Assembly: GCA_037043015.1 (NCBI GenBank)
Contig: CM073321.1
Span: forward strand, 9,370,001-9,434,000
Direction: 5' to 3'
Source: Bryum argenteum
Lineage: Eukaryota > Streptophyta > Bryopsida > Bryales > Bryaceae
Length of the DNA stretch: 64,000 nucleotides
Part shown: in pieces, positions 39,640 to 62,809 of the stretch
How the letters are laid out: each line of letters opens with the position of its first letter
Numbering within the stretch: the stretch's first letter is position 1
Translations under genes and position numbers: made by a program
The notes under the pieces: generated by a model
Database searches by the model: none
Seen by the model: the letters and a program-made list of their open reading frames with translations, nothing else
Told to the model about the DNA's origin: nothing

Positions 39640-39650
39640 CAGGGATGTCA
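39640..39650 (+). repeat. Left terminal inverted repeat of the giant hAT
   Basis: CAGGGATGTCA. Preceded by TSD TTCCGGAC. Followed within 80 bp by GGACGTC, GGACGTCCG and GTCCGTCCGG clusters. Confidence 0.9.
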
Positions 39651-39831
39651 ATCCGGACGTCTTTTGGGTTTTTTTGGTCGGACGGACGTCCGTCCGTCCG
39701 GACTTCCGTCCGGGGGGTAAATCGGAATTACTATGAATGTAGTAAATTTATTAACCGTCAGATCGTATTGAAAATCGCATCGTAGCCGTTCAAATAGTGT
39801 TGTGAGTGTAGGTGATTACCGTTGGATTGAA

Positions 39832-40380
39832 TCGGGCGGCCCAGGACCGTCCGATTGGCCTTGCCGACCGACCGGTCGACGCCGTCGGATCGGTCGCGGC
39901 CGGCGGATCGATCGGTCGATTGGCGGCCGCCGTTCGATCGATCGGTCGCGGGTTCGCCGCCGCCGTCGGATGGGCCCCGGTCGGCGTCGGCCGTCCGATC
40001 GGTTGCGGTCGGCGTCGGCCGACCGATCGGTCGCGGTCTCCGTCGGCCGTCCAATCGGCCGCGACCGGCCGGTCGGCAGCGGCCGTCCTATCGGTCGGCT
40101 GATCGGTGGGGTCGGCCGCCGGTGATCGGTCGGGTCGGCCGGGCCGATCGGTCGGGCCGGTCGGCGCCGGCCGTCCGATCGGTCGGCCGATCGGTCGGTC
40201 GGCCGCGGCTATTCGGTTGCGCCGGTCGGCGCCGGCCGTCAGATCGGTCGGGCCGGTCGGCCATCGGCCGTCCGATCTAGGTCGCCGGTCGGCCATCGGC
40301 CGTCCGATCTAGGTCGCCGGTCGGCCATCGGCCGTCCGATCTAGGTCGCCGGTCGGCCATGCGACCGCGGCCTATATAAG
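39832..40380 (+). promoter_or_regulatory. GC-rich CCGGTCGG block and TATA box before the kinase-like gene
   Basis: About 540 bp dominated by CGGTCGGCC/GGCCGTCCGATC words, with at least three copies of a 32-bp unit at 40258-40360. It ends in TATATAAG at 40373-40380, about 165 bp upstream of the first ATG. Similar blocks precede each of the other genes of the giant hAT. The long Arg/Pro-rich frames here are composition artefacts. Confidence 0.65.
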
Positions 40381-40545
40381 GCCGACCGGCCTCCACTCTC
40401 CTCACTTCTTTCCTTCGTTATCAGGGTGCGGAGTAGCTGTAGGTTGGAAATTTTTTTAATTTTCATCCAGTGGCTCCTTATCCTACGGAGGAAAGAAGTC
40501 TTTTCATTTGTAAGGGGGGAGATTTTGCTTTTTTTTTTCACAAAG

Positions 40546-42035
40546 ATGCCTAAACATGGGGCTGGCGGTAGTGGGGGGAATCGAGGCCGGAGACCAAGGG
40601 TTCATAGACATTTGGAGAAGTGGGACACCCATCCAATAAGTGCAAGAACTTTCTTCGGGGGAATGTAATCGTGCGGTTTTATGAGGCTAACAGTCTTCCA
40701 CGTTTGTTTAGCAAATACGTGAGATACAAAGAGGAAGCTGTGGCCAAATTCAAGGACGACATGATGGACCTCATGATGGAAGCGCTCCAAGATCCGGTGT
40801 GGAGAACGGAGACCGATAAGCGTGGTTTCTGGATTTGGATGGAGGATAGATTAATTGATGCTCTCGGAATGTCATCGACATATTGAAGAGGTATGAGAGA
40901 ACCACTCGAGCGGGTGATGAGGAGTTCAGGGATGTGGTATTGAGGGCAGAAGCTTTTCAAGAAGCGATGAGGCTGTATTCCAATAATGCAAACCGGGTTG
41001 GTTCCATAGGATGGTGGCGCACGGAACAAGGAAGGTTAATGGAGCTGGTTCGTACGAAAAATTTGGTAGTAATTCCTATGACGGCCCGTATCATTGAGCT
41101 TGAGAAGAGGACTCTAAGGGGAGGATACGACACAATTTCCAAAGTTCACATAAGAGGGGTTGTGGGTATTGAAGAGTTTTGGGAATTTCTTTGCAAGACT
41201 CCCATCCATCTTTGTGACACGACCGGACTTGGCCAAGGTGGAGCATCGAATGAGGAGCTTCTTTGTGAGGATACAACATCCAGGTGTTATTCGTTTTATA
41301 GCCATTCATGCAAATAAATTCCAAGGCTATACGTATTGGTGGAATGGCGGCACGATTCGATCAATGTTGGCCCTCGATGCAAGATATGGAGATGATGTTC
41401 ATGGAGAGATCGGACTCTCACCTCATTCTGATGATGAGCTTATTCGAGCTTGGCAGTTGGTCCGGTTCCGCAAAAAACGAACAGAGCTTGCTTGGGCTTT
41501 AGTGCATATCATGTGTGAAGTCCACCGGTTGAACTACCTCCACAACGATGTGTCTTCAGACAACATACTTCTTCACTTCCCTCAAGATGAATCACGGGTG
41601 TATATTGGAGTATGTGATTGGGGGCTAAGTACGAGCATGGATGATAAAATGAGGTCCTTGTATACGTTCACAAAACCCCAAGAGCGAATTGATACTCTAC
41701 AAGCACGATATTGGGTAGATCCTCGGGTGGCGTACTTGTACAAACGGAGTGATGACATTCACATTATTCCGCTTCTTGATTGCGCTTCGGAGGAGTTTGC
41801 TACGGCACGAATAGCACAACGCATCCTCAAGAAGAGCATGTCGAAGGCCTACGAGAATTGCCAAAGTACAACGGGGCCTGACCGGTGGTGCAATCAAGAC
41901 TTGGCAAATGCTTTTGACCAATACTTGGAGATGGTAGCTGATGCAAAGTATACGTTGACCCACGTTGTCAACTGCTTCATGGAATCATTCCATTGGCCGG
42001 TGCCAAATGATCATTATCGCACCAAGTATGATTAG
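40546..42035 (+). pseudogene. Divergent protein kinase gene (hAT cargo), frameshifted
   Basis: ATG 40546 gives MPKHGAGGSGGNRGRRPRVH. Coding sense then passes through several frames (shifts near 40.65, 40.87 and 41.18 kb) to a stop at 42035. Kinase signatures: a Gly-containing start TLRGGYDTISKV; helix C/beta4 AKVEHRMR..RIQHPGVIRF; WWNGGTI; the catalytic loop YLHNDVSSDNILLHF (HND-x4-N replacing HRD-x4-N, with catalytic Asp and Asn kept); and CDWGLS replacing DFG with the metal-binding Asp kept. The N-terminal ~200 residues (GFWIWMEDRLIDALGM...) are unlike anything I know. The usual VAIK Lys is not obvious, so it may be a pseudokinase. Host-directed phosphorylation is only a guess. Confidence 0.65.
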
Positions 42036-42751: not shown

Positions 42752-43971
42752 TTAATCCGATTCTTCATCATCGTGTTTACGACTTCGCGCAGCGCCGTAA
42801 GAAGGTGGTCCTCGAGAAGATTCTCCAAACAAGTACGTTTGCCTAAAGTTTCTTTCGGCTTCGAGCTGTTCAATGTATTCCTGCTGACTTAGAAGTGTGG
42901 CTTGTTGCAGATCTTGTTGGTACCTCGCCTCTTCGTCCTCCGGAGATAGATAAGGTGCTGAAGGCAGGTCGTTACTTCCGTATGCATTCTGACCATATCC
43001 ATAATTTGTGTAGCCAACAATGTCTGATCTTCTATCATATTGACCTCCATACTCGTATGTTTCCTTCGGGTGTGATGGCCTACGGTACTCGGGACTTCCG
43101 AATGTTGTACCGTATTGGTTCCCACGATTGTATGGGTTTATAGGATGAGTTGGGCTTGAGTTGCATTGAGCATTGGATCCGCTACCCTGCTCACCTCCTA
43201 AACCATGTGTACCTCCTGTATACATTGGAGATGGGTAGTTCGAACTAGATCCACCTCTATTGTACTCGCGTTCGGCTCCGTACGTGTTTTGCTGATGAGG
43301 TGGCATATAACTCACCGGAGTACTGAATTGGTGGTTTCCATGGTAATACCCCTCACTTCCTTCGCCACGAGATCTTTGGTGCTTGATGATCGTCATGGTT
43401 TGAGTCTTCTTTGAGTGCCCCCATATGCCCTTGGAGTTCCATGTTGTTGAAGTTGGGCATCCATATCAGCTGAACGTTCTGAATACGTAGTATAACAATC
43501 GCTTGGTCCCATCCAATTTGTCGGAATGAATCGGTTGCTGCGATCCAATAAATGCACGTTCAAACCTATCACAGTGGTCCAGTCAATGTCCATGTGCAGG
43601 ACTATTTCAGCCCACACCATGGCCATGGTAGAATACAACATCAATTCTGGCCTTGTGTTCTTGATTCCAACTGCAATTGTGACTTCGTGATATCTGTGCT
43701 CAAAATGGTCGCTCTTGCAACTCTTCACTGGGCCTTCACGACGAGGACCATATTTCTCTGCTTCGTGCCGCGGCCATAACTTCATGATGTGGTACATCTT
43801 CACGTACTTCTTGCACATGGTGCAATTCCAAATGTCCGCCCACTCCTCTCGCCAACCCGGCTCTGCAACACAGTTTGGGTCACTCCATGCTTCCCAATCC
43901 ATTTTTGGAGGGTCGCCCTTTGGTCGTGGAGACTTGGCCTCCCCTCTCGAACGTGAAAACTTGGGCGCCAT
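42752..43971 (-). pseudogene. Cys/His-rich protein gene with Tyr/Gly/Ser-rich tail (hAT cargo)
   Basis: ATG 43971 opens MAPKFSRSRGEAKSPRPKG (basic, NLS-like). The core has GWREEWADIWNCTMCKKYVK, then KSCKSDHFEHRYHEV; C-x2-C plus C...H..H suggests a metal-binding domain. It closely parallels the N-terminal part of the RING gene at 49387 (both have CKKYVKMY and KLWPR). The first frame ends TGA at 43393. A second frame begins with an ATG overlapping that stop and continues with a Gly/Tyr/Asn/Gln-rich tail (NRGGSSSNYPSPMYTGG) and a short charged helix, to 42752. The ATGA junction is more likely an indel than true coupling. Unknown function; resembles known BED-like fingers only loosely. Confidence 0.55.
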
Positions 43972-44109
43972 TTCCAGCAGCGACAAGTATGCACAGTGTG
44001 GGCGTGGGTGACCCACGCGGACTCTGAGTAACGCAGTCGATGCAGCTTTAAAAAAAGCCGCAACGCACAGCTCGTTCACCAGAGTGAGGGACAATGAGCC
44101 CCTCCCCTC

Positions 44110-44460
44110 CTATTTATGCCGACCGGGATCGGACGCCATTGGCCAGCTGGCATTGGCCGTCCGATCTCGGCCGGCAGCCGTCAAATCCATGATGCGGCGG
44201 CCGGCGACCGGCCGGTACGACCGATCGGGGTCGCACGTCCGATAGATCGATCGGGGCCGTCCGATGGCGCGGCCGATCGGTCGATCGGGGCCGCCGATCC
44301 CGGCCGACCGATCCGGCCGACCGGCGACCGGTCTGGCGACCGGCATCCGGCCACCCGACCGGGCCGGCGACCGGCGACCGGGCCGGCGACCGGCGACCGG
44401 GCCGGAGACCGACGACCGGGCCGGCGACCGACCCCGTCCCCCGGGCGACCGGTCGGTTGA
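44110..44460 (-). promoter_or_regulatory. GC-rich block and TATA box before the Cys/His gene
   Basis: CCGGCGACCGGCC-type words fill 44150-44455. On the minus strand they end with CATAAATAGG at 44111-44120, about 145 bp upstream of ATG 43971. Same arrangement as the other three genes of the element. Confidence 0.6.
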
Positions 44461-46915
44461 TCCTTCCGCGTCTCCCCTTCCCCCTCTTCCTCTTCCCTCA
44501 CCCAAAAACTCCTCGTTTGCACAACTTCGAACACTTCCTCTCCTTGCATACCTGCATTTTCAAAAGTTCTATATTTAGCCTCTTTGGTCCACGTGGCGTC
44601 TAAATAAAGACAGGGAATGTTCTGACAAGGGAATGTCGGGAATGTATTTTCGTCATAAACGGGAACGTTTTATGACAAAGATACTATCGGCTTTAAATAA
44701 ACCTATAATAAGGGACTCTTTGCAAGAGGAGGGAAGGCCAACAAATCTCCAAGCCAATTCATGCACTTTTTGAGTTATGTTGCCCAATTAGCTTTAATTG
44801 AACAATACATTTAACAACCAATTTAGTGGGGCCAATTTTCCGAGTCATGAAGTCCTTTCGAGTTGAAGCCCATGTCTAGAAGGAGAGCCAAGGCCATGGG
44901 GCCAATTCTTATTATTAACTAAAGTCCTTGTTTTTTTTTGGTACACATTTATTTTTTATTTTTTGTTTTTTGGAATTAATCTTCCTTAACACCTTAACAA
45001 TCATGGCCACCATTTCGTCTTTTATCGTCACGGCCAAAAAATGTTTCATATTCAATTTCAAATGTAATGATCTCGCATCTAGTGATGATCCAACGGTTGA
45101 AGATTTCACACTACTACATATGGTACTTTACTCAAGATCCTATGGTTGAAATTATAAAGTATATCCAAAAATATTGGACATAGCCCCTTTGTAGTGAAAC
45201 CACCTATTCTCGTACACTTAAGGAAAATTGAGGGAATCTATATACTTGGTGTGAGAAAGGAGTGGGTTACTATTTTTCACGGATAGGAAATAGAAAAATT
45301 TATCCATTCTCACTAGGAGAATTTGTCATGTCTTGGCCCCCATTCATGACTTGCCCCGTACTGTGTACCCTGAGGTGGCCCTAAGTCCCCTCTAATTACA
45401 TTCCAAAAATTTTACCTAGTCCTTGGTGAGAATATATTGATGTCTCACATTGGAGAGATCCAAGTATATATGAAATGTAGGTGATCATGTGTGAGCATTT
45501 ACTTTTCATAACTTTGGTCTTACTGAGTTTGTCAATATTTAGACTTTCTATTTGGGCCTTAAAATTTCCACATTGTATGGTCTTGTTTAATTGATGGGTA
45601 TTTGGAAATTACTCCGTCGTTGTGTATTCTAATTAGTAATACTTATTATAAAAAATATGGTGCATAAACAATTAATTCTATTATTCGCTATTTTTTGTTT
45701 GACAACCTTCAACTAACCTAGGAGAATATATATAATCTAGTACGTATGATTAATTGTAGCATTATTCTTATTGAATGGATTTGAATAGTTACTCATTTCC
45801 CTCTTACAAAGGTAACTGAAATAAGTTTTCATTGTTACTATTTTTGCAATCATAAAATAAGAGAAATAAATAGGGAGACAAATAAATTTTAAAAAATATC
45901 CCACCCTATAAGTGTTTAACATATGGCAATAATGGCATCAACTTCTAAATTTTTAAGCATATTTGATATTGTACACGTATAGTACATTAGTACTAGGATT
46001 AGATGTTATATCAAATTGATTATTCGTATACTATGATTGATTGATTTGGGAATAGAATATTTTGAAGAGCCATCACTTCTTCATTTACTGTATGTAATGG
46101 ATACATTCTCTTGTGGATAAACTTTAAGTTCTTGGTTAAAGATGTATGAATTACTATGTAGGCCTCTAGGGTATAGGGTTTAGGGTATAGGGTTTAGGGT
46201 TTAGGGTTTAGGGTTTAGGGTCTTGAGGATTTGGGGTGGATTTCATTTTAATCCTAGTTTCTGTGTTGCAAAGCTTTGTAAACACAATTGTGTGTGGATG
46301 TAAAATAATGGATTACTCTATGTATGGTGTAGTTCTCAATTATATTTTACATGGATACAAGTTGCACTTCTCTACATCGCATAGTTAATGTGTGCAAAAT
46401 AATCTATTTTGTATTTATCATTTTTGATTGAAGATGTTATTGACATGGAATAAATCACACATTTATTGCAAAGAATATAGAGGTACAATATTAAACATCA
46501 ACATACGAATTATGATTCCAGAGTCTTCAATCTCATAGCCTATTTTAAACCAATATTGGAATAGAGTTACTATTGTATGTCATGTGCCTCAAAGTTTAAT
46601 TCATAGAGCCTCATAGATCATAACGTATGAGTACTGAAGTAGTGTTTGTACGAAACATCTTTGCATTCGTGAAGATCTATACTTTTATGGAGTTCACTCG
46701 AAATGGTTATGAACTTAAAATTTAAAGTTCAAATGTATCCGTGAAAAAAGAATACTTAGCATTTCAGAAATCAACATAGGATTCCTTTTTAATTGTGTAG
46801 TAATTACTGAAATCTTTGAGAAATAAAAAAAGGATCCTATGCAATTTTATCTTATTTTAGTTATATATTTAAGGAAAAAAATTTTAAAAAAAAATTAGAA
46901 AAAAAAAAAACTGTA
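44461..46915. repeat. Duplicated spacer, copy 1
   Basis: Matches 47101-48905 in order and orientation over several blocks: the CT-rich leader (TCCTTCCGCGTC...TTTGCACAACTTCG), the CACGTGGCGTCTAAATA segment, ATGATCCAACGGTT...CAAAAATATTGGAC, and the end AACATAGGATTCC...GGATCCTATGC. No gene. Contains interstitial telomeric repeats at 46168-46221. Confidence 0.75.
46168..46221 (+). repeat. Interstitial plant telomeric repeats
   Basis: Seven to eight units of TTTAGGG, two reading TATAGGG. This is the plant-type telomere sequence. Inside the spacer of the hAT element, so it is not a chromosome end. Confidence 0.85.
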
Positions 46916-46919
46916 CTGC

Positions 46920-47100
46920 GGCCCCCATTTCGGTTGGCCGCCATCGGGCGGGAGTGCGACCGGCCCGGCGTCCGGCGACCGGCCCGGCGACCGGCGACCG
47001 TCCTGGCGTCCGGCGACCGGCCCGGCGACCGCCCTGGCGACCGGCCAGGCGACCGCCGACCGGCCTGGGGACCGACCACGTCCCCCGGGCGACCGGTCGG
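46920..47100. promoter_or_regulatory. Orphan GC-rich block
   Basis: CCGGCGACCGGCCCGGCGAC-type repeat, like the block at 44.1-44.46 kb and followed by the same downstream sequence. No gene remains on its AT-rich left side. Probably copied along with the duplicated spacer. Confidence 0.55.
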
Positions 47101-48905
47101 TCGCTCCTTCCGCGTCCCCCCTTCCCCCTCCTCCTCTTGCCTCTCCCCACACTCCCCGTTTGCACAACTTCGATCACTTCCTCGCCTTGCATACCTGCAT
47201 TTTCAGAAGTACTATATTTAGACTTTATGATCCACGTGGCGTCTAAATATGGATAGGGAATTTTCTGACAAGAGAATGTCGGGAATATCTCTTTGTCCCA
47301 CGCGAGAATGTTTTATGACAAAGATACTCTTGGCTTTAAATATATCCATAGTAATGGACTTTCTTCAAGGGGAGTTAAGGCGAGCAAATCTCCACGCCAA
47401 TACACTCACTTTTTGAGTTGTTGTGCCCAATTGGCTCGAATTGAAGTAAACATTTAACAATCAATATAGTGTGGTCAATTTTCTCATTTGTGAAGGCATT
47501 GAGAGTTGATGCCCTTGTTTATAAGGAAAGCAAAGGCAATGGGGCCAATTCTTATTATAAGTTAAAGACCATGCTTTTGATTGTACACACTAATTTATTA
47601 CTGTTAAAATATTCCTTCTTAACCCCTAAAGATCCATGGACACCAAAGTGGAGGTTTCCTATTTCGGGCAGCTTATATGAAGAGGTCAAAAGTAATAATT
47701 TTTTATTAAATTTTTTCTAGGTGGTCCTTACACCGCAAAGTGCATGTGCTAAAATTTGCATATCCAAATTCCAAATTTACAACCTACATCTATAATATTT
47801 ACGTTTGAAGTCCACTAAGGGCAGTTAAATTTAGTCTTTGTTTGAAATTATGTTTTGGAAATATGTTCATGAACAATTTACTACTTCAGTTCCAAAGTGA
47901 CCCAAGTCAAAATGTTTGTCTATTTCACAAGGGTACCCTTGAGAGATTACAAAAATAATCTTCACAATTTCTAGTAATTTCCGATATAAGTCATATAACT
48001 CTTTCTTCGATTGATTGTTTTGAAAATATAAAATTATAAATAGGCATCTCTACTTCATTTAGAGTATCTAGTGGATAAAATCACTCGTGGATAGGATTTG
48101 TGGTTTATGGTTTAGGATGTATGAATAACTCTTTAGGATGAGTTCCAAAATAAGTGTCCTACATTAAGATTTGGATACTCCAATTGACATTCTCAACCAT
48201 GCAATATTGGAATAGAGTTACTGTTGTAGGTCATGTGGTTAAAAGTTTGATTCATGAAGCCAATGGTCAATTAAATTACAAAAGGAAAATAGAGAAGAAA
48301 GATATTGATTCGAAACCAAATGAATGCCTTATGTTTGAAACATCTATTAATTTGTGAAGATTTACACTTTAAAGAGTCCACTCAAAATGGTTATGAACTT
48401 AAAATTTAGAGTTAACCCCTAAACGACCACGGCCACCGATTCGGCGTTTACAGTGAAGGAAAAAATAATTTACAGTCAACTTCAAACGTTATGATCTCAC
48501 ATCTAGTAATGATCCAACGGTTAAAAATATTCACAGTACTACCAATGGTAGTCTACTTCAAGATCCTACGGATGAAATTATCAATAATTTCCAAAAATAT
48601 TGGACGTACCCCCATTAGTACATAGTGGTCTGTGTTGGGATTTCAAGCTCCCGAAACATTGTGGATTTTTAGGGGTTAAGATGTATCCGTGAGAAATAAT
48701 ATATTGCATTTCAGAAATCAACATAGGATTCCTCATTTCAGTTTGTAATAATCACTGAGAATCAAATAACAAAAAACTTTGCGAAATAAAAAAGGATCCT
48801 ATGCTATGTAAGATCTCTGAATTTTAAAAATATATATATATATATATATATATAATTTTTTAATTTTTATTTTTAAAAAAAATTGAAAAAAAAATTTTAA
48901 AAAAA
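47101..48905. repeat. Duplicated spacer, copy 2
   Basis: Second copy of 44461-46915, shorter through deletions; its telomere-like part is degraded to TTTATGGTTTAGG near 48100. Ends in an AT microsatellite (48830-48855) and A-rich tract before the GC-rich promoter block of the RING gene. No gene. Confidence 0.7.
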
Positions 48906-49200
48906 ACCGCAGCGGCCGCCCACATCGGTCGGCCGCGTTGGTTGACCGGCATCGGTCGGCCGGCATCGAGCGGCCACGATCGGCCGGCCACATCGGTCGG
49001 CAGCCCCCGGTCGGCAACGACCGGCCGGCCCGAACGACCGGCCACGGTCGGCCGGCCCCGATCGGTCGATCGGATCGACCGGCCACGATCAGTCGGCCGG
49101 ACCGGCCGGCCAAGACGGTCGCGGCCGTGATTGGCCGGCGGCCACCGTCCGGCCGGCCGGTCTCTAGGGTTGGGAGGGAGGGGGGATAAAAGGCCTTTGG
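48906..49200 (+). promoter_or_regulatory. GC-rich block and TATA-like box before the RING gene
   Basis: CGGTCGGCCGGC-type words fill 48910-49165 and are followed by GGGATAAAAGGCC near 49181, about 200 bp upstream of ATG 49387. The leader CCCCTCACTTCTCC resembles that of the kinase-like gene (CTCCTCACTTCTTTCC). Confidence 0.6.
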
Positions 49201-49386: not shown

Positions 49387-50136
49387 ATGGCGACGGATAT
49401 TGATAACACGAACATGGAGGCTGGTTCTGAACAGACCTTGAGGTCACTGCGACGAAAACCACAAACGCAGGATTGGTGGGGGACCGAGTTGGTTTTACAT
49501 GAGACACCGTCAAAGAGAGTGAAACCAAAAGGAGTGAGACATGAGTTGCACTACGATATCTTGGATAATGAGGCCATCAAAGCCGAGAGCGGTTGGGCCA
49601 ATGAACCGGAGGAATCTTTGGAGAATGGCGACGTGCAAGAAATATGTGAAGATGTATCGCATTGGGAAACTTTGGCCTCGAGAATGTCACAAAGTTAATA
49701 CCAATAATTTTACTTGCAACCCTCAAACATGCAAGGATGATCACTTCCTTCATCGTCTTTGAAGAAGTTTGGGTGGCATTGTTTGGAACTCGTCCCAAGA
49801 GCAAGGGTTATTTTTCATATACGCTCTTGAGCATGGTGTATCTTGAGCTCATATTGAAGTGCAAGGTGAACTGAGCACATTCACGGCGAGTAGTGCATAT
49901 CCTCTTGAATCGGGAGAAATCAAAAAGATATCCCGATAGGTTTGATCCGAATCAAATTCTACAAAGGCCTTATTGCGATTTTCTGAGGAGGAAAACTCAT
50001 GATACGGCGGAGAAGGAATCTCCTCCAACAACCACGACACATCAGGAGGATGGAAGGAATATGGTTGCTACGGATGCCCCAATCGTAGAACCAACTATAA
50101 CTGATAGGCTCGAAGGTGCAAACGTAGTTGAAGAAC
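49387..50136 (+). pseudogene. 5' part of the Cys/His-RING gene (hAT cargo)
   Basis: ATG 49387 opens MATDIDNTNMEAGSEQTLRS. Reading passes through three frames. The second (about 49.55-49.76 kb) has ATCKKYVKMYRIGKLWPRE and NPQTCKDDHFLHRL; the third has EEVWVALFGTRPKSKGYF; the last (49893-50136) has HILLNREKSKRYPDRFDP. All align in order with the gene at 42752-43971. The gene is interrupted at 50136 by the chromovirus and resumes at 56308. Confidence 0.65.
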
Positions 50137-50620: not shown

Positions 50621-50812
50621 CGACGGTTTGTCGAGACTACCTTCTCACAAATATCAGAGTTAGTCCCTTCTTGTTAGAGAGTGGATTACCCCTCTTCTCG
50701 AAGGTGTGCTAGTGTTTTAGAGGTTGCGGATTACCCTCCTCTAAACCAATATTGTTCTCTTGTCAAATTTTTCTTTTCTTTCGTAGATTTAGTCAAAGAT
50801 CAAGACGTTAGT

Positions 50813-51805: not shown

Positions 51806-51810
51806 GAACC

Positions 51811-52527: not shown

Positions 52528-52529
52528 CG

Positions 52530-53495
52530 GAGCTGCGAAAGTGCATTGACGAGAATCTAGCGAAGAACTTCATTCGTCATTCAAAGTCGCCAGCTGGGGC
52601 ACCGATCTTGTTTGTAAAGAAGAAGGATGGCTCCTTACGAATGTGCGTGGACTATCGAGGCCTCAACAAGGTAACTAAGAAAAATCGTTACCCGTTACCC
52701 TTGATTTCTGGTCTCTTGGAGCAGCTCGGGCGTGCAAAGATCTTTACAAAAATTGATCTGAGGGGAGCTTACAACCTCGTACGGATCAAGGAAGGAGACG
52801 AGTGGAAGACAGCGTTCCGTACAAGGTATGGCCATTTTGAATATAATGTCATGCCTTTTGGCCTTACCAATGCTCCGGCTGTTTTCCAACACATGATGAA
52901 TGACATCTTTCGGGAGCACCTTGACGACTTTGTTGTCATCTATCTGGATGACATCCTGATATTTTCCAAAAACGAAGAAGAGCACGAGAAGCACGTTCGT
53001 TTGGTCCTCGAGAAACTACGAGAACGAGGACTCTACGCCAAGTTGGAGAAGTGCCTATTCCACCAAACCGAGATGGAGTTTTTAGGGTTCATTGCAACTA
53101 CAGACGGCTTGAAGATGGACCCTAAGAAGGTGGAAGCAATTGTATCATGGGAGGTTCCGAAGACGGTTAGAGACGTACAATGTTTTCTTGGATTTGCTAA
53201 CTTCTATCGAATCTTCATCAAGAATTATTCTCGAGTCGCTGCTCCACTCACTCGGTTGACTTGTAAGGACAAGCTCGAATGGGGACCTCAAGCAGAAAAG
53301 GCATTCCAAGACCTCAAGATGGCATTTATCACAGCTCCAATCTTGGTACATCCTGACTTTACAAAGGCCTTCTATTTGGAGACCGATGCTTCTGATTTTG
53401 CTTTGGGAGCCGTACTTTCACAGATGGACGTGGACGGGAAGCTTCATCCAGTGGCGTTCTATTCTCGAAAGTTTTATCAAATAAATCAATTATGA
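52530..53495 (+). CDS. Reverse transcriptase of element II
   Basis: APILFVKKKDGSLRMCVDYR, GAYNLVRIKEGDEWKTAFRT, MPFGLTNAPAVFQHMMNDI, active site VIYLDDILIFS (both Asp), thumb FLGFANFYRIFIKNYS, and the start of RNase H (FYLETDASDFALGAVLSQ). All RT motifs are intact. The frame is lost at a homopolymer-free indel near 53490 in RNase H. Confidence 0.9.
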   Translation, partial: ELRKCIDENLAKNFIRHSKSPAGAPILFVKKKDGSLRMCVDYRGLNKVTKKNRYPLPLISGLLEQLGRAKIFTKIDLRGAYNLVRIKEGDEWKTAFRTRYGHFEYNVMPFGLTNAPAVFQHMMNDIFREHLDDFVVIYLDDILIFSKNEEEHEKHVRLVLEKLRERGLYAKLEKCLFHQTEMEFLGFIATTDGLKMDPKKVEAIVSWEVPKTVRDVQCFLGFANFYRIFIKNYSRVAAPLTRLTCKDKLEWGPQAEKAFQDLKMAFITAPILVHPDFTKAFYLETDASDFALGAVLSQMDVDGKLHPVAFYSRKFYQINQL

Positions 53496-54456
53496 AATCC
53501 ACGATAAGGAACTTCTTGCCATAGTAGATTCCTTCCAAGAGTGGCGACACTTTCTCGAAGGCGCTGCACATCCAGTGACCGTATACACGGATCACAAGAA
53601 TTTGGAGTACTTTATGTCGGCTCGAGTCTTGAATCGACGTCAAGCTCGGTGGAATATGTCGTTGTCACGATTTGACTTTGTTATTACCTATCGGCCTGGG
53701 AAGCAACAAGGACTATCCGATGCCTTATCGAGGAGATCGTATCTGGCGCCTAAGGCTGGAGAAGCAGCGTTTGATCAACAATGCACCACATTGCTGAAAC
53801 CGGAGCATTTTAGAATTTGCGCTACTGTCATGCCAATTGATACGGACTTCCTTAACCAGATACGTACTGCGACAATTGAAGATTCTGTAGCTCTCGAGAT
53901 CAAGAAGCGTGCTGATAATGACAAGTTCAAGGTGGAGGGAGATCTTTTGTACTTTGAAGAGCGACTGTATATTCCTAAGGGACGAACACGACTTCGAGTC
54001 CTCCAATCACGCCATGACTTTCCAGCTGCAGGACATTTTGGATACAACAAGACATTGGAGCTTATTTCGCGAGACTTCTGGTGGCCCCAAATGTGGAAGG
54101 ATGTGAAGGAGTTTGTTCTCTCTTGTGATATTTGTTCAAGGTCGAAGAACCCTCGGCATCGCCCCTATGGACTTTTGCAGCCATTGCCTATCCCGCATCG
54201 ACCATGGTCTTCAGTTTCCATGGATTTCATTACGGACCTGCCGCCTTCAAACTCGTTTGACAGCATCTTTGTTGTGGTAGATCGGCTGACGAAGATGGCG
54301 CATTTTGTTCCTTGCAAGAAGACATCGTCGAGCGAAGATACAGCAAGACTCTTTCTTGATAATGTATATCGTTATCACGGCTTGCCAGATGATATTGTGT
54401 CGGATCGCGGAACCCAGTTCGTCTCAAGTTATGGAAATCTCTATTTGAGATATTGA
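53490..54456 (+). pseudogene. RNase H and integrase N-terminal half of element II
   Basis: RNase H continues (IHDKELLAIVDSFQEWRHFL, YTDHKNLEYFMSARVLN, GLSDALSRR). The integrase HHCC follows (HDFPAAGHFGYNKTLEL; CDICSRSK). Core: SVSMDFITDLPPSNSFDSI (first Asp), VSDRGTQFVSSYG (second Asp). A stop at 54456 follows a frameshift. Confidence 0.85.
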
Positions 54457-55276
54457 AGGTGGATATCAAGCTTTCTTGACATTTCATCCTCAAACCGACG
54501 GACGAGGCGGAACGGGTGAATCAAGTATTGGAGCGAGATCTCGTTGCACCATCAACTATCAGCAAGACGATTGGATCGAGTATCTACCGCTTGCCGAGTT
54601 CGCCTACAACAACACTATTCATGCGTCGACCCAACAAACACCATTCTTTGCCAACTACGGATACCACCCGAAGCTTGATATGGAATTCAGTGGCCAATAA
54701 CAACCCAAAGAAATAAGATTTTGCGGCGCGACTATCGGAACTTCAAGCAACGCTGAGACTTCAATTGCAAACTGCCCAAGAGTTGTACAAGGCGTCCGCA
54801 GATAAATTTCGGAATGAGGCACCTACTTTCAAGATCGGAGATAAAGTAGGGCTGCTTCGACGGAATATCAAGACCAAGCGGCCGTGTGATAAGTTGGACT
54901 ATCGAAGATTGGGACCATTTGCCATCCAGAAACAAATCAATCCAGGGGCGTATCGGTTGGAGTTACCGCTACTACTATGAAGGTACATCCAGTCTTCCAC
55001 GTGTCTTTATTGGAACCTTATCGAGAGTTGACTTTTCCGGGAAGAGTGCGAGGGCCGCCACCTAGTATCGAAATTGAGAACCACGAGGAATATGAGGTGG
55101 ATAAGGTACTGGATTCACGGCGCAGAAGGGGAAACTTGGAGTATTTTGTGCATTGGAGCGGATACGACATCAATGAAAGAACGTGGGAACATGCCGAAAA
55201 TCTTGTAAATGCGCCGGAAAAGGTCACAGAATTTCATCAACGATATCCTCATAAACCTAAGCCTTTCCGACGATAA
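54457..55276 (+). pseudogene. Integrase C-terminus and chromodomain of element II
   Basis: HPQTDGRGG marks the end of the core, then LAEFAYNNTIHASTQQTPF. After shifts, FKIGDKVGLLRRNIKTKRPC and HPVFHVSLLEPYRE appear (GPY/F module). The chromodomain (about 55095-55205) reads EYEVDKVLDSRRRRGN, YFVHWSGYDINERTWEHAE. Stop at 55276. Confidence 0.88.
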
Positions 55277-55406
55277 CTTCTCTCCGACGCGCTTGCCCAC
55301 TCGGGAGAGAATAAAAGGGGAGAGTGAACACAACCTTGATTCACATTTGATTTACATATTTTGTTCTAGATAGAATTTCTCTATAGTCATAGTTTGGTTT
55401 TTAGTC

Positions 55407-55771
55407 ATGGATAGTCAAGAGATAGATAGCATACCGGTTATGCCATCTCAACCAACCAACTCTCGAAGGCGACCCGGAGATGAAGAACCGCCTACGCCAC
55501 GACGCCGACGGAGGATTCCGAGCAATCGATCGCCGTGATTGTATTTGAGGTCGTCGAGCCCGCTTTCAATGGTCTCGCGAAGGTGTGTTTGCGGGACAAT
55601 TCCATAACGAAGACATACGTAAGTTCACGCTTGGTCGAGGAAGTGGAAGGCGTCGGCCACTATCGTTGGCTTCAAGGACCGATGAACCACTTGCCTCGTG
55701 AACAACAATTGGAGTTTATTGCGGATGTCATGCGGCAGATTTTCATTTTCCTGCTACTTATTATTGACTAA
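55407..55771 (+). pseudogene. Extra 3' ORF of element II
   Basis: ATG 55407 encodes MDSQEIDSIPVMPSQPTN followed by an Arg-rich stretch (PRRRRRIP) and a TGA at about 55537. A second frame from 55535 to 55771 continues with EVVEPAFNGLAKVCLRDNSI and GHYRWLQGPMNHLPREQQL. The two are probably one gene split by an indel. No domain recognised. Element I has no counterpart after its chromodomain. Confidence 0.45.
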
Positions 55772-55817
55772 CAACAACGTTGCTTCTCGGAGACCTCGAA
55801 GCTAGAAGGGGAGGTGA

Positions 55818-56302
55818 TGTCACGGACATACACAAGAAGTTTCTAGAAGGTTCTTCTAAAATATTCTCTGAAGATTCCCTAAAAGATTCCTCGAAGATTC
55901 CTTGAAGATTCCCTGTGTCACGGCCACGTACTAGGTAGACAACTTAGGAAGGTTCTAGAAGGTTCTAGAAGCTTCCGAAACTTCGGAAGTTCCCGGAAGT
56001 CTCTCGGAAGTTTTTGGAAGGTCCTTGAAGTTTCCGGAAGGCCCCGGAAGCTTCGGAAGGTCTTGGAAGTTCTTGGAAGGTCCTAGAAGGTCCTAGGTTG
56101 AGGAAGGTTCTGGAGAACCTTCTTCTTAGCTAGTATATATAGGAGTCGAGGCTGAGGGCAACCTCAGTCTCGACAACGCATCTCTTGGAGCTCTAGCTCA
56201 TCTCTCTTGTTGTTGTTCGTGTACTCTTCTTGTTAATTCAAGCTCCTGTCAGTTCTTGTTAGTTTCCACATATTCTTATCATCTGTTTCCGTGTCCCTGA
56301 CA
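55818..56302 (+). repeat. 3' LTR of element II
   Basis: 485 bp, begins TGTCACGGACATAC and ends CCCTGACA, next to TSD AGAAC. Preceded by a polypurine tract (GAAGGGGAGG, 55805-55814). It differs from the 5' LTR by point changes and several 1-2-bp deletions. Confidence 0.88.
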
Positions 56303-56307
56303 AGAAC

Positions 56308-58906
56308 CTCGTGAAACCCCGGTACCAACACCAGAGGAGGCAGGGCCAAGTGAACCACGGGAAACCTGAGCACCAACTTCTCCCATGGATGACATGGATC
56401 TCGATTCGGGTGCGGCGCCAAAGTTCGAGAGGTATATGCGTTATCAAGTACCGGATAACACATTGGATGAGTGGATGAAAAAAGCAAAAAGTTTGGCAGA
56501 TTGGTGCAATGAGGTAGATAAAGAGGAAGGTTTGGAAGGGAATCATTGGCCTGAGACTACGGGTGAACAGATAACTAATCTAGGGTACAACTTGAAGATG
56601 GGGTCAAAAATACTTGCGGATATGGCTCCAAACTTGTGGAGATGGCTCATAGTTTTGCAGGTGTCATGCCCAACGTTCTACTAGCTGCCAACAATTTTGA
56701 GGCACTCGTAGATCGGTTTGAACCTCTACTGAAGGACCGAGTGAAGACTGAGCTAATCATTGAGAAACAGGAGAAACAACAGCAAATTACGCAACGTCTC
56801 CTTGACGAGTTCTACAGGGAATTGCGGTTGTTTGGCCAAGGTCCTGCTAGCAAGTATGAGGCAAAGTACCAAGAAGCAATCCGCCAAAAGGATGCGGTAG
56901 AAGCATGGGCGGATGACCAATTCGCCTATGTTCCATCACAGAATGACACTCAGGGGGCTTCATGTAGTCATGTTGTTCCAGAATGTGATGCGGGTGGTAA
57001 AGACGATGGTAAAGAGGATGGTGAAAAGGATGGTAATAAAGATAAGGGGAAGACCATTATAGGGACTTCTGATAGTCTTTTTCTTTCACAAATTGATAGG
57101 GGTGGTAAAGAGGATGGTGAAGAAGAGAAGAGAAAGACGTATATCAGGGATTTATCTCCTCTCAAAGAGGTTAGTGAAGAGGATGGTAAAGAAGATAAGG
57201 GAAAAACCATTATCGAAATAGACGATGATGACGATGATGAAATTCGGGGGGAATTGAAGTTAATATCACAAAAGGAGATAGATGATGCACAGATTGAGCG
57301 ACAACGAGCATGGGCGATGGAGTTCGCAGCACTGAAGAAGGAGAGAGATGTTACAGTTGCAAAATTGGAGGAGGAAGCAAAAGCATGCTCAATGAAGTTG
57401 GAGGCTACAAGTAAAGAGAGAGATGAGGCAGTCGCTGAATTGGAGGAATTACGGAAAACCTTCAAAACGATAGATTCTACAGAGGCAGCAATCCACCTTC
57501 ACCTACGCATACTACCATGGTTGGGATGGGTTCATCGACTTCAAGATAAGAGGAGCTTGGTTTCAAGAGCAAAAGAAGATCTGAAATCGATTGCATCTAC
57601 ATCAAAGGAATCACGTGAAGTTGTAGATGCTTCATTGGAGAAGTTCGTTAAGAACGGATCGAAAAAACGATATGACCCCATAGAGGTCACTTTTTGGGGG
57701 GATATTGAAGAGATGATGGAGCGTACAAACTACTCAAAGATGGGACGAAACAATGATGTTGATTGGACTATGGAGATAGAGGAAGGATGGGCGCCGTATA
57801 GTAGATTCTCATCGCACCTACAAGAGTCAGCTCGCATTGTAATCAACACATGCGACCCTCCTCCCGCAATACTTAAAGACAAATGTGCGGTGTGCCTACA
57901 TAATTTTGGTCCGGAGGGCGCATACACGTTAGGCCAATGTGGCCATAACTTTCATGTTACTTGCATATGCCGATATGCGATGACTAAATCGGTATGTCCA
58001 GTATGTCGCTCCCCATTTAGCACGAGATTTTACGAGATGATGGGCATACGAGATCTTATGCCACCAGGGCACGAGTTCAACCGATGGAATCTTCCACTGG
58101 ATCAATACTCAAAGAAATTTCTAAACTACTCTGATTGGGGAAATGCACTTGACTGGAGTACGTCCGAATTAAAACACCAACTAGCCATTCAATATGGTCG
58201 GGATCATGATCGGTTATTTTGGATGACACAAGATTACGAAATAGAGATAAGGGCGAGGAATATTGAAGGTGAAGAGCAACTAGAGTTGTTTTGTTGTAAT
58301 TTTAGAGGGCATTGCAGCGTCGAACACAACCGTTTCTTTCGATTTCCTCCAAAGAAAGTGGAAAAGGGAGAAGATGGTTCGTGGCACGAAATAACCGATT
58401 CAACAGGCTTTGGTGAGGAGTACAAGAAGTACGATCATACTCCAATTGGAAGAGCTCTGGTACTCGCGAAATTGGAGGAGGCCGCAATATTCCGGATTTC
58501 ATCACCGGAAAATTCTTTCGAAGATGTGGAGGTCTCTTATTGGGATACGGTGAAGAAGTTTGATACGCGTATCGATGACGCCATTACATTTTGGAGAGAA
58601 TGTCTTTTAAACCCAAAAGACACACAACTTCTATTATTGGATGAGTTCGAAGGTGTTGTACAGGATGTCATTGCAAAGATCGAGAAGGCCATGGAAATCT
58701 TACGTAACAAACAAGTAGATCCGAGCAAAAAGCGGAAGAGGCAATCGGGCGACGATGGGGAGGATAGTTGGCAGACAGGTATGAGAGGCGAAATCGCAGC
58801 GGTGGATCGAGAGTATGAAGAGGGCGGTCGAATTGCCCGTCCAAGTCAAAGACCGCGAACTCGTAGTGTATCTCAGATTGGCCAATCGGATGGATCTTCA
58901 GTTTGA
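56308..58906 (+). pseudogene. 3' part of the Cys/His-RING gene: coiled coil and RING-H2 domain (hAT cargo)
   Basis: Directly after the chromovirus the interrupted frame continues; a TGA soon follows (ET-stop-APTSPMDD, probably TGG), then open sequence to 56684. A frameshift leads into the 756-codon ORF ending at 58906. In that ORF, residues ~40-80 and ~215-285 are charged helices (coiled coil). Residues ~417-458 are a RING-H2: CAVCLHNF, CGHNFHVTC, CPVC, with all eight metal ligands in C3H2C3 order. Residues 480-600 hold an uncharacterised domain (DWSTSELKHQLAIQYGRDHD, CCNFRGHCSVEHN). The C-terminus has KKRKRQS. RING-H2 proteins act as E3 ubiquitin ligases; substrate unknown. Confidence 0.75.
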
Positions 58907-59292: not shown

Positions 59293-59911
59293 CTACTCAT
59301 CAGGACCAGAGGATTGCTCATAATCGCTATCTCCCTTCACTTCAGCTCCACTAGATCCCGTAGGATCATATTCATAATCGCTTGGAACCTCCTCTTTGAC
59401 CTTGGGTTTATTCTCTGAACATTGTATATTCCCATACTTATGCCAAGTATCAAATTCGGGGAGATTAACAGGGATCTTCGGTTTTTTAGGCGGAACAATT
59501 GGAACCGTTGCAGATTTCCGTTTATGCGACTTGGAAGTGCCAAAGCTGTTGCTGTAACCCCGTGGCAGTACGAAGAACATTGGCGTTCTTTTTATACCTG
59601 CCCAACGGTACATCAGAGTCACTAGAGATGCTCCCATATTTGGCTCTTGAAAGGGATACTAAACCCTTAGACGATTTCTCCAAGGTTGTCGTAACCCTTG
59701 TAGTAGAGGTTGAAATAAAGCGCGGGAGTAGCACATTGATCGAGATACACCGATCCTTACTACCGGATGCAATATTCTCCGCGACCGGATCGAGCTCATA
59801 GTGCCCGCGGTGGTGTTTGCACGCAGGGTCTTCGCATCTATCCCCTCCTTTTCCAACCGTAAACCAAGAGCGATAATAACGGTAGGACGTTATTTGATTT
59901 GTCCATGCCAC
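59293..59911 (-). pseudogene. C-terminal tail frames next to the hAT transposase
   Basis: Two overlapping frames continue past the transposase's last stop. One (59911-59522) contains CEDPACKHHRGHYELDP, a Cys/His cluster. The other (59637-59293) has a basic stretch (GTSKSHKRKSATVP) and an acidic tail (DYEYDPTGSSGAEVK). They may be the original C-terminus of the transposase after frameshifts, or a small fifth gene. Confidence 0.4.
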
Positions 59912-62195
59912 CTTGTGTCATTAACCGGGCTAACGGCTGCTCATCATCTAGATCATCCGCTGAAAGACCATGAGCGATAAAATCACCATTACCATCATGA
60001 ACATTTGGAGCATCTTCATCATTTGAAGCGGGGAAGAAAGTCATATCATCATCTTCATCGCCAAATTCAAAAACATCATTGTCATCAGACTCTGATTTGT
60101 CCTCGACAACTTCCTCATCATTCTCATGTACTTGGTCTTCCTCTAAATCCAAGTTCTCTCTATACCACCGCCCATCATTACTCAACTTATCATTCGCGAC
60201 CAATTTCGAGTTGGAATATATGTAGACCAAGTCATTAGCTCTGCCCGGTAGTAACCGATTCCGTTTTTTGTCGTGAACATAGGAGTAGCTACTCCAGTTG
60301 CGTTCGCAAGCTGACGAGGACACGGTCTGTCCTAGTATTCGCTTTGCAATTGGAGAGAGGAGCTTAGCACAAGCACCTTCAAACTCCCACCATGCATGTG
60401 GAGCTAGTTTTTGAGTATTAGGCTCCAACATGTCATGGAATGGTGGACCCCTTACTCGAAACGCAAGAAATTCACTCACCACGTCTGCGTAATCCTCCGC
60501 GGGACATAATTTTTGTAAAACACGCTTGCAAGCGATTGTAAGATCGGGATCGTCAGCTAACTCTTGGTCGTGTAGTAAATAAGGATTTAAAAGTGCAGCC
60601 GCGCCATGTAAATCCGTTGTCATGAGCCGTTTCCGATGGTAAAACTCCTCTTTTGCGGTGGCCACCTCAAGTGGTTCCAATGAGATGGGCGGTGCGTGCA
60701 AAGTATGGACATGTCTCTCAAGATCACGCATAATATGCCATGCCTTGCCCGTACTAGGAGCCTTGCCGTCGAATTCTCTCAGAGCGTACACCACGGGGGC
60801 AACCATATCTCGTAGTCTTTTGCATTGCTTCCAAAACTCATCGCTCAACACCACCTTCTTGACCTTACGTGAGAATATAAGCTTATCTCTAGCAGATACC
60901 ATCTTCTTCGAGGCATAGGCTGTGAACATACGGTCGACAACAACTTGCTCCAATGATTCCTTGACCTCCAACAAGCGATCTATCATTATGAATTGACTAG
61001 CAAATCTTGTTTTCCCGGGCATTAGTAGGCTGAATTTCGCCTCGAGTTTACGAAACACAGCTAGGGGCATTTGTCGCCTCTTCATAAACTTGACCATTTT
61101 CTTCGCCATGACCAAAGTATTCGCCATCCATCCAGCCCTTCCCCAATCCTCCAACAACAAGTCCATTGCATGTGTCGCACACCCTTGCATGAAAATGTGC
61201 GGATATTTCTCAAGGACTATTCTTGAGGCATTGAGCATTACAGAAGCATTGTCTGTGCATACTTGAACAATGTTCTCTGGTCCAACTTGTTCTATGTACG
61301 TCAACATGAGAGTTGACATGTACACCGCAGTTTTTTCTTGGCCAGTAGTATCGACAGCACCAAGAAAAAGCTCTCCGGCTTGAGTCACGAGCATCGCATT
61401 CACCAAAGGGCGACTAGTCACGGATGACCATCCATCCATAGTCAAAGTTCCTCCAAACTTCCGAAGGCTCTGAGAGAGTCTACTATCTAGTTTCTTTTGT
61501 AACTCCGTCTTTACTTCTCCGAACAACCTTGTCCGAATGTCATGGTAAGATGGTGGAGCATAGGATTTTCGAAATCCCGCAGTCTTCATCACGGCAGCTT
61601 TGAACGCATCATTGCGGGCCACTGAGAATGGTATATTTGCTTCGTAAAAAAATTTCGCCCAGAGTTTATCCAACTCCCGCCTATCCGCTCAAAAAGTAGC
61701 TTCAATTGAAGATTGCTTCGTTTGCTTCATAGATCCAAACATCGGGCGAGTATCCCTTATTCCCCTCATATGCATGGAAGAAGCAGAGGTTGACCCTACC
61801 AAAAGATTTGTTGAATTCATGGGGGTGCCTAGCGAGGACCCTACACAAGAGTCACTCCTAGGGGTTTCAGGAATGTCATGTTTTGAAGCACCTGGAACGT
61901 CCGTGGATGGAGTGAGAGAACATTCACCGAGAAATAGTTCCAATTCTCCGTTATATGGAGGGAACTCCCTACCACATCTTAAAAATAACTGCCTAATTTC
62001 CCTAGGCAGCTTTGGGCAAAGGGCAGAACTCGAATCCCTATGTCCAGGAATCTTCTCGTACCCATAATGACTCAAATTCCGTCTCTTCTTCTTCGAAACA
62101 ATTACACGACATAGTGAGCACTGTAGGAAGGACCCAGACGCTTTGTCTTATTTCTCGATGTCTCTAAACCAAGGCTCATGTGGAGCAGGGCCCAT
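59838..62195 (-). pseudogene. hAT transposase (BED finger, DUF659, hAT dimerisation domain)
   Basis: ATG 62195 (MGPAPHEPWFRDIEK), with an in-frame stop upstream. It is one frame to 59838 broken only by TAA at 62148-62150 and TGA at 61689-61691. The N-terminus has a BED-like finger with CSLCRVIV and HYGYEKIPGH. DUF659 follows: GGTLTMDGWSSVTSRPLVN (Asp of the DDE triad), VCTDNASVMLNA (second Asp), and a C.TH.MDLLLEDWG motif. The dimerisation region is SSSACERNWSSYSYVHDKKR. The acidic C-terminus is ...EDQVHENDEEVVEDK. It belongs with the hAT ends at 39640 and 62809 and would cut and paste them. Two nonsense codons make this copy probably inactive. Confidence 0.85.
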
Positions 62196-62392
62196 TTTGA
62201 TAAATAGGACGCCTCAAAGTCTTAAACAATGGTGGGACCGTGACGGGGAAAAAAATGGCAAGAGTTCCTTACGGAAATCCTCACTTCCGAACTCAATACC
62301 TACCAAGCAATGTACACATAAAATGAATTATGTGGCTCATAGCTCTTGGAAAGTGTTCAAAATTCGGAAGTGAAATGAGACTCAATGTGTCT

Positions 62393-62695
62393 TCTCTTAT
62401 ATACCATCCAACTCCGAATATGACCGTTGCAATTTGAAGTTGAAATGCTCCTAAACCGTTGGATGCTCAAAAGGGCCATCTGGCCGTTGGCGGTCGCAGG
62501 ATGCGAGGGCCGGTCGCAGTGGCCGACGGCCGGTCGCCTTGGCAGACGGCCGGACCGACGGCCGGTCGTCCGGGCCGACGGCCGGACCCAAGGCCGGTCA
62601 CCCGCGGCCGACGGCCGGTCGCCCTGGCCAGCCGACCGGTCGGTCGGGCCGACGGAGAGGTCGGGGACCGGTCGACGGGGAGGTTCGACCAATGA
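62393..62695 (-). promoter_or_regulatory. TATA box and GC-rich block before the transposase gene
   Basis: TATATAAGAG on the minus strand (62395-62404) lies about 200 bp upstream of ATG 62195. Upstream of it, 62470-62690 is filled with GCCGACGGCCGGTCG-type words. This is the fourth gene-linked GC-rich block of the element, close to the right terminus. Confidence 0.6.
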
Positions 62696-62798
62696 ACGCA
62701 CCCCGTTGGTCATTTACCCTTGGTAAAACGACCAGATTTTCTAAGTCACGGACGGTCCCCGGACCCCTCCCGGACGTCCGCGGGACGTCCAGACGCTG

Positions 62799-62809
62799 TG
62801 ACATCCCTG
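62799..62809 (-). repeat. Right terminal inverted repeat of the giant hAT
   Basis: TGACATCCCTG on the plus strand, exact inverse of the left end, followed by TSD TTCCGGAC. Two GGACGTCC-type motifs lie within 40 bp inside. Confidence 0.9.

Follow-up and report, generated by a model that had tools for sequence, protein, structure and literature searches.

Cut-and-paste transposons are usually thought to need little besides their transposase. Typical hAT elements are about 5 kb long, with a range of 110 to 7,144 bp, and the hAT elements of Pseudocercospora fijiensis that contain histone pieces reach 9.5 kb (PMC6710886). Among transposons with accessory genes, the VANDAL elements of Arabidopsis encode VANC, which has conserved domains and highly variable regions, binds arrays of tandem motifs in the non-coding parts of its element and removes silencing (PMC5735166). 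The fungal element ToxhAT has TA duplications and was proposed to be a non-autonomous, single-copy member of Tc1/mariner; by that paper it is therefore not a giant hAT element (PMC12506042). Here we describe a hAT element of the moss Bryum argenteum that carries a kinase gene, a gene for a Cys/His-rich protein (hereafter the Cys/His protein) and a gene for a RING-H2 protein in addition to its transposase gene. It lies in a 64,000-nucleotide stretch of DNA (the window; C1:9370001-9434000 of a 258.8-Mb genome in 25 contigs). In the open-access literature we found no multi-gene plant hAT element, which does not establish absence from print.

The element and its copies in the genome

As shown in Table 1, the element occupies positions 39640 to 62809 of the window (23,170 bp, or about 17.0 kb without a 6.2-kb long terminal repeat (LTR) retrotransposon). 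It starts with the 11-bp sequence CAGGGATGTCA and ends with the exact inverse, and TTCCGGAC adjoins both ends as an 8-bp direct duplication. A preliminary description, made from the letters of the window, had reported these ends, a DUF659/hAT transposase between them and a length of about 17 kb without the retroelement, and each was borne out. The bare 11-mer is not rare enough alone; the case against chance is one of recurrence, and chance ends were rejected because the ends recur with differing duplications. A third exact 11-mer, at position 4451, was excluded from the family because another copy, compared with the window, found matches only within the element.

Thirteen copies were read, the window copy included. 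Both perfect 11-bp ends with identical flanking 8-mers were present in 9 of the 13, and the eight complete copies besides the window copy are 16.8 to 18.2 kb long. The duplications of the nine complete copies are TTCCGGAC (window), ATTCGAAT (twice), CTAAAGAT, GACACCAC, GTCCCAAG, GTATTTAG, TCCGGTAG and AAGAAGAC. The palindromic ATTCGAAT is common to two independent copies, at C7:4568571 and C5:5004791, whose flanks differ. In this small sample all nine duplications have A at position 7 and six have T at position 2, a preference that fits nTnnnnAn, which serves as a criterion for Ac-type hAT elements and is the target pattern of Hermes (PMC10368747). As for the remaining copies, C1:24.8 Mb lacks matching 8-mers although its two ends are perfect, the alignment of C3:0.35 stops two bases short of the right end, with no perfect right repeat, C10:15.98 has no perfect right end within the DNA fetched, and C8:7.49 has no perfect end within the 10 kb fetched.

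A 26-mer from the left end matched 185 sites of the genome at two or fewer mismatches, 98 of them exactly, and the reversed control matched none. The left 261 bp and the right 410 bp each have at least 40 genome matches. Over the DNA compared, the window copy is collinear with 10 others, with some insertions and gaps. Pairwise identity among 12 copies is 90.2-97.3%; the C8:7.49 copy, with 10 kb only, was excluded from the whole-element alignment and from the RING-H2 and transposase counts.

Empty sites were sought for two insertions and matched for both, at paralogous places. The joined flanks of the window copy match C1:9742217-9742393 (93% over 177 of 177 bases), and those of the C4:6.86 copy match elsewhere (99% over 153 of 153 bases). 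At both sites there is no net gap at the insertion point and the 8-mer is present once. Since the flanks match uninterrupted paralogous sites, both insertions landed in repeats, with the whole unit between the copies of the duplication. What is seen of cut-and-paste movement is past insertions, two of them with paralogous empty sites. The preliminary description had proposed that a family would be recognised by copies with common ends and gene order and different 8-bp duplications, and mobility by empty sites; many such copies, and empty sites for both insertions searched, were found. The element has been inserted many times as one unit, and we regard it as practically certain that the 17-kb four-gene element is one mobile unit.

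C1 (44.1 Mb, 17% of the genome) holds 40 of the 98 exact left ends, 2.4 times its share (p 2e-8). This enrichment rests on the complete list of exact ends only; an excess of protein matches on C1 may reflect the candidates scored. C1 is the largest contig with length displayed and may be a sex chromosome.

The four genes and their linkage

The transposase of the window gave Pfam matches to DUF659 (E 2.7e-33) and Dimer_Tnp_hAT (E 1.4e-11; 1.2e-10 in copy J). Together with this dimerisation domain, the 8-bp duplication in 9 of 13 copies and the short 11-bp inverted ends recurring in the genome place the element in hAT. D316 and E632 are invariant and D255 nearly so in 14 aligned sequences, and these three residues may be the acidic catalytic triad of the RNase H-like core. 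The N-terminus contains Cys and His and, as we read it, resembles BED domains; Pfam reported no BED domain. Relatives of the transposase comprise 39 proteins (13 aligned); the identity is 91% for one of them and 36%, over half the length, for another that comes from Ceratodon and is tagged as U-chromosomal. The searches for relatives of the kinase and the RING-H2 protein required common 5-residue words, and those for the transposase and the RING-H2 protein scored the best 8000 candidates by common words. Within the transposase gene, at 61868-61878, lies a copy of the terminal repeat with one mismatch (CAGGAATGTCA), which recurs in 8 of 10 other copies scanned; one of the two copies without it was fetched only partly. 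It is possibly a decoy end, or a coincidence.

The longest frame of the kinase, on the plus strand, has 494 amino acids from Met (508 stop to stop). It scores below the Pfam cut-off by sequence. G205, K230, E249, D347, N352 and D370 are invariant in 16 of 16 aligned kinases (one family copy and 15 of 47 relatives, which share 27-56% identity), and we read these residues as the glycine loop, Lys, Glu, the catalytic Asp (HxD), Asn and the Asp of DWG. The kinase would thus have the motif set of an active kinase, as judged from the alignment. A structure model (mean predicted local distance difference test score, pLDDT, 75) matches protein kinases, with a best E of 8.3e-6, so that the kinase claimed by the preliminary description stands despite the Pfam score. 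The best of the 47 relatives is 56% identical over 95% of the length (59% in one shorter match); named ones are M758_3G001500 and KC19_VG055000 of Ceratodon purpureus and a metagenome-assembled 'Bacilli' protein. KC19_VG055000 (P0032) represents a cluster of 126 sequences, and lies on a 110.5-Mb contig with a tag that suggests the V chromosome. The 'Bacilli bacterium' protein (P0019) sits on a 2.9-kb contig and is probably moss DNA in a metagenome bin. No ordinary plant homologue was seen among 5.8 billion proteins in this search, limited to relatives with common short exact words. No relative was confirmed in prokaryote genomes with two peptide patterns, and a prokaryotic origin of the kinase is unlikely.

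The RING-H2 protein, on the plus strand, exceeds 1,000 amino acids, with open frames of up to 1,204 residues at other loci. Its finger, also claimed earlier, was detected by Pfam above the cut-off (zf-RING_2, E 2.8e-9), and the Cys and His of the C3H2C3 pattern are conserved across seven aligned sequences. It is probably a ubiquitin ligase, judging by this domain. The longest frame of the Cys/His protein, on the minus strand, has 405 amino acids from Met; pieces of it matched no Pfam family. At their N-termini the two proteins have a common domain, some 125-145 residues long (HHalign probability 99.4, BLASTP E 3e-22), in which Cys and His positions are invariant in the seven aligned RING-H2 sequences. 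Relatives of the RING-H2 protein comprise 6 proteins, and no ordinary host homologue was seen among the 8000 best-sharing candidates scored. A reading of some matches to the Cys/His protein at 60-62% as old subfamilies was dropped, since copy A (62%), the one checked, is 94% identical in DNA; a broken frame is the likelier cause of its 62%.

At 77 of 85 kinase loci, another part of the family lies at the expected place and orientation (a Cys/His match at 62, a transposase match at 27, an exact left end at 41), and controls on the wrong strand or the wrong side gave 0 or 1. Of the transposase loci, 55 of 71 have one or more other parts in place, as do 68 of 98 exact left ends. These counts are lower bounds because each list is partial (150 rows of 1332 Cys/His candidates; 98 exact left ends of 185 matches). 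Of the 92 kinase rows 7, and of the 77 rows for the transposase 6, were removed as second fragments of counted loci. All 13 copies contain kinase and Cys/His sequences, and all 12 that extend far enough contain RING-H2 and transposase sequences. The preliminary description had set two patterns against its own proposal, namely ends that flank only the transposase and cargo genes at many loci without these ends. The first was seen in none of the 13 copies read (nine complete); as to the second, 77 of 85 kinase loci have another part in place, in lists that are partial.

Linkage may extend to distant relatives. The RING-H2 relative P0049 and the transposase relative P0059 come from contigs of equal size (8,444), as do RING-H2 P0053 and transposase P0066 (7,321) and kinase P0033 and transposase P0073 (27,639), and the protein lengths of the three pairs are compatible with contigs of those sizes. 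From these equal sizes we infer that kinase-transposase and RING-transposase linkage persists in relatives at 44-49% transposase identity.

Five CG-rich tracts (GC 0.71-0.78) occur at corresponding positions in eight of eight other complete copies. In the window, one is subterminal at each end of the element, one precedes the Cys/His gene, one precedes the RING-H2 gene, and one sits gene-free within a diverged tandem duplicate. They rank among the more variable parts of the element. The sequence TATATAA at 40373-40379 follows the left tract, upstream of the kinase gene. The region 45000-48800, about 4 kb mostly AT-rich and without long frames, is conserved between copies about like the coding parts and includes a diverged tandem duplicate of the promoter tract region. 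No Rfam family was found in the element at the gathering threshold.

All four genes of the window copy are degenerate: the transposase has stops, the kinase and Cys/His frames are broken, and the RING-H2 gene is split by the retrotransposon, whose LTRs have 5 mismatches over 482 columns (97.9% identity) and whose target duplication is AGAAC. Upstream of the element, fragments of other retroelements (reverse transcriptase, RNase H, integrase) lie at 4260-5066, 7658-8545 and 32697-35021.

Table 1. Features of the four-gene hAT element in the window.
Feature	Position	Strand	Remarks
Left target site duplication TTCCGGAC	39632..39639		Identical to 62810-62817; single copy at matched empty site
Left terminal inverted repeat CAGGGATGTCA	39640..39650	+	26-mer from here: 185 genome matches
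Left subterminal CG-rich tandem-repeat tract	39857..40360 (approximate)		Counterpart in 8/8 other complete copies
Kinase gene	40546..42035	+	Frames broken in window; 494 amino acids from Met in copy D
Cys/His-rich protein gene	42752..43971	-	Frameshifted in window; 405 amino acids from Met in copy J
CG-rich tract 2	44110..44480 (approximate)		Upstream of Cys/His gene; counterpart in 8/8 other complete copies
CG-rich tract 3	46919..47096		Within diverged tandem duplicate of tract-2 region; without long frame
CG-rich tract 4	48887..49189 (approximate)		Upstream of RING-H2 gene
RING-H2 gene, 5' part	49387..50136	+	N-terminal Cys/His domain in common with Cys/His protein
LTR retrotransposon, later insertion into RING-H2 gene	50137..56302	+	Duplication AGAAC; LTRs 97.9% identical
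RING-H2 gene, 3' part	56303..58906	+	Starts with second AGAAC; RING finger about 57878-58009
RING-H2 hypervariable segment	56383..56757 (approximate)	+	Codon divergence between copies
hAT transposase gene	59293..62195	-	In-frame stops and frame breaks in window; 967 amino acids in copies J and K
DUF659 domain of transposase	about 61098-61553	-	Pfam
Dimerisation domain of transposase	about 60210-60428	-	Pfam
Right subterminal CG-rich tract	62480..62690 (approximate)		Upstream of transposase; counterpart in 8/8 other complete copies
Right terminal inverted repeat	62799..62809	-	Exact inverse of left 11 bp
Right target site duplication TTCCGGAC	62810..62817		Identical to left 8-mer

Selection on the genes and the variable segment of the RING-H2 protein

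The neutral ratio of amino-acid-changing plus stop variants to silent variants, 3.0-3.3, was derived from the spectra of singletons in the middle part of the element, which is non-coding. Variants shared by at least two of the 12-13 copies gave omega 0.60 for the kinase (p 0.022), 0.48 for the Cys/His protein (p 0.004), 0.50 for the RING-H2 protein outside codons 275-480 (p 0.0003) and 0.36 for the transposase (p 8e-7). Singletons gave 0.55 (kinase, p 0.0003), 0.87 (Cys/His), 0.87 (RING-H2) and 0.75 (transposase, p 0.003), below the neutral expectation for the kinase and the transposase. Sharing was defined by count and not by tree, and variants are linked, so the p values are approximate. Constraint on all four genes is supported against the neutral expectation, and a difference between old and recent variants is clear only for the transposase. 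Since amino-acid changes are fewer than expected among shared variants, the lineages that spread seem to have retained working genes.

One part of the RING-H2 protein behaves in another way. A hypervariable segment of about 125 residues (codons 275-400) has omega 1.1-1.4 between copies. Its two main types differ by nonsynonymous divergence (dN) of 0.41-0.52 and synonymous divergence (dS) of 0.36-0.44 (omega 1.1-1.2 in five pairs). Copy D has a third type, at dN 0.15 and dS 0.11 (omega 1.4) from the first of these and at dN 0.50 and dS 0.45 from the second. Elsewhere in the gene dN is 0.03-0.04 and dS 0.04-0.08, and the dS of the segment between the main types is 5-10 times that of the remaining gene. 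Among shared variants, amino-acid changes are in excess at codons 275-480 (p 0.021). The tree of the segment and the tree of the rest of the element conflict, each rejecting the topology of the other (approximately unbiased test, p 7e-8 and 8e-5); copy D clusters with K and J over the element and with the A type in the variable segment. Genome searches with two segment types gave, for the best 150 of 303 candidate loci each, identities from 100% to 37%. From these comparisons we read the segment as a recombining specificity segment of multiple types, which is new here. Positive selection on it is suggested, not proven, because part of the divergence is old sequence imported by recombination.

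Role of the accessory genes and comparison with known systems

The explanation that we favour, if by a modest measure, is a hAT lineage with four genes, in which the accessory proteins serve to regulate the element or to protect it. The transposase would excise the element and paste it into nTnnnnAn-like sites, as hAT transposases do, and the accessory proteins would belong to the function of the element and not be passengers. The CG-rich tandem tracts at the ends and before genes could be binding sites for the Cys/His and RING-H2 proteins, which have a domain in common. The variable segment of the RING-H2 protein would contact a partner that changes fast, the likeliest being a host silencing factor or the diverging tracts of the element itself. 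The kinase may switch this Cys/His-RING-H2 machinery. By analogy with VANC, anti-silencing would be the likeliest accessory role to be named, and a role of this kind or another that counteracts the host is put forward tentatively. More doubtful, taken as a whole, is the picture of a conserved four-gene genome, with a kinase and a RING-H2 ubiquitin ligase whose specificity segment is swappable and diversifying, that would encode a system to degrade or block host silencing factors and would co-evolve with the CG-rich arrays, as an independent, ubiquitin-based counterpart of VANC; as part of it, a related lineage may have filled part of the Ceratodon sex chromosomes.

The accessory proteins could instead act directly in transposition, as cofactors, by binding the ends, by cell-cycle timing through the kinase or by turnover of the transposase through the RING ligase. 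We hold this to be a real but rather unlikely alternative. To our knowledge, the known hAT transposases function without such partners, and a fast-changing, recombining RING-H2 segment is more typical of conflict than of housekeeping. The position of CG-rich tracts in both subterminal regions as well as before genes speaks for a direct role, and a 17-kb element may require more help than one of 5 kb; several hAT elements also have end requirements that extend far beyond the inverted repeats (Hermes, PMC10368747).

Whatever they do, the three accessory genes are very probably the element's own selected genes. They do not look recently captured but look like long-standing parts of it, because shared variants are depleted in amino-acid changes, linkage is inferred in relatives and no ordinary host homologue was seen for the kinase or the RING-H2 protein among the candidates scored. 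The word cargo in the preliminary description was therefore right as to the presence of extra genes and not in the sense of captured passengers. An ordinary hAT element with host genes captured once, as passive Pack-type passengers without function for the element, has a precedent in the 9.5-kb fungal hAT elements with histone H3 pieces (PMC6710886), and the long single reading frames in some copies would suit capture of processed copies. Such capture is nevertheless improbable: shared variants in all three accessory genes fall below the neutral expectation for amino-acid changes, the catalytic residues of the kinase are kept in 15 of 15 aligned relatives at 27-56% identity, the search of 5.8 billion proteins for relatives with short exact words in common gave no ordinary plant kinase homologue, and linkage apparently persists in distant relatives.

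Purifying selection on the accessory genes would equally be expected if they served the host and the element spread as a beneficial package, as has been argued for the cargo of fungal Starship elements (PMC12506042). We give this little credence as well, since the same genes recur in 12 copies, and apparently in distant relatives too, whereas Starship cargo varies, and all 13 copies are damaged in at least one gene, unlike what maintenance by the host would give. A viral origin of the four genes, by integration into a hAT element or fusion with one, is most improbable: a set of kinase and RING-H2 protein is reminiscent of large DNA viruses and the kinase has a weak match to a poxvirus-kinase profile (E 0.016, below cut-off), but no relative of the kinase or the RING-H2 protein was confirmed in 2.9 million viral contigs (two peptide patterns per scan), and in the frames of the element tested with Pfam there was no structural or replication gene of a virus, one phage-regulator match lying below the cut-off (E 0.09).

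Several observations weigh against the favoured explanation of a four-gene lineage with its own accessory functions. Not one of the 13 copies has all four genes undamaged. In lists that are partial, the loci with no other part in place number 8 for the kinase (of 85), 16 for the transposase (of 71) and 30 for the exact left end (of 98); either the missing parts lie beyond these lists, or such loci are truncated or solitary remnants. The case for linkage in relatives depends on contigs of equal size. Shared variants and singletons differ significantly for the transposase (Fisher p 0.0018) and for no other gene (p 0.058 for Cys/His, 0.78 for the kinase, 1.0 for RING-H2 with the variable region included), the C-terminal part of the RING-H2 protein taken alone is marginal (shared p 0.061), and the constraint on kinase and transposase singletons is not predicted by a simple picture of dead terminal copies. 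At codons 275-480 the excess of amino-acid changes is weak and singletons show none (omega 1.06), and the high dS of the segment means that recombination with old lineages explains much of its divergence. As to structure, the prediction for the RING-H2 protein is poor (mean pLDDT 35), and the best matches of the kinase model have template modelling scores (TM-scores) of about 0.3 by query and about 0.5 by target.

As the family shows, a DNA transposon can assemble and keep a small genome, here with three further genes under apparent purifying selection and probably linked in relatives. The variable RING-H2 segment offers a direct starting point for asking how such an element may resist or escape its host. 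Since a relative of the kinase is annotated under a V-chromosome tag of Ceratodon purpureus, some of the genes counted as sex-linked in mosses may belong to transposons.

Like hAT elements of the Ac/Hermes type, the moss element has short inverted ends starting with CAGGG, 8-bp duplications that fit nTnnnnAn and a transposase with a C-terminal dimerisation domain and an N-terminus that contains Cys and His. The end of Ac likewise begins with CAGGG. Elements of that type are a few kb long with one or two genes, whereas the moss element has 17 kb and four conserved genes. The histone H3 hAT of P. fijiensis also has DUF659, 8-bp duplications and an extra gene; its captured histone pieces are, as that report describes them, decayed and host-derived (PMC6710886), whereas the accessory genes of the moss element are conserved and constrained. 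No host parent was detected for the kinase or the RING-H2 protein; the search for the Cys/His protein covered this genome.

The fungal ToxhAT/ToxTA (14 kb) is similar in being a large cut-and-paste element with several genes. Starships, too, are large eukaryotic mobile elements with accessory genes, but they use a tyrosine recombinase 'captain' (PMC12506042) and have variable cargo, whereas a hAT transposase is found here.

The moss family resembles VANDAL with VANC, by analogy, as a DNA transposon with accessory genes in which tandem arrays occur together with a conserved domain family and a hypervariable segment. VANDALs themselves are Mutator-like elements. The moss element is no member of VANDAL/VANC, since it has a hAT transposase and Pfam gave the pieces of its Cys/His protein no family, although no direct comparison with VANC was made. 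No RING-H2 or kinase part was seen in the VANDAL description (PMC5735166). Anti-silencing is demonstrated for VANC and is conjecture only for this hAT family. By its dimerisation domain, ends and duplications the element is a hAT, and its size and gene content exceed those of the hAT elements found in print.

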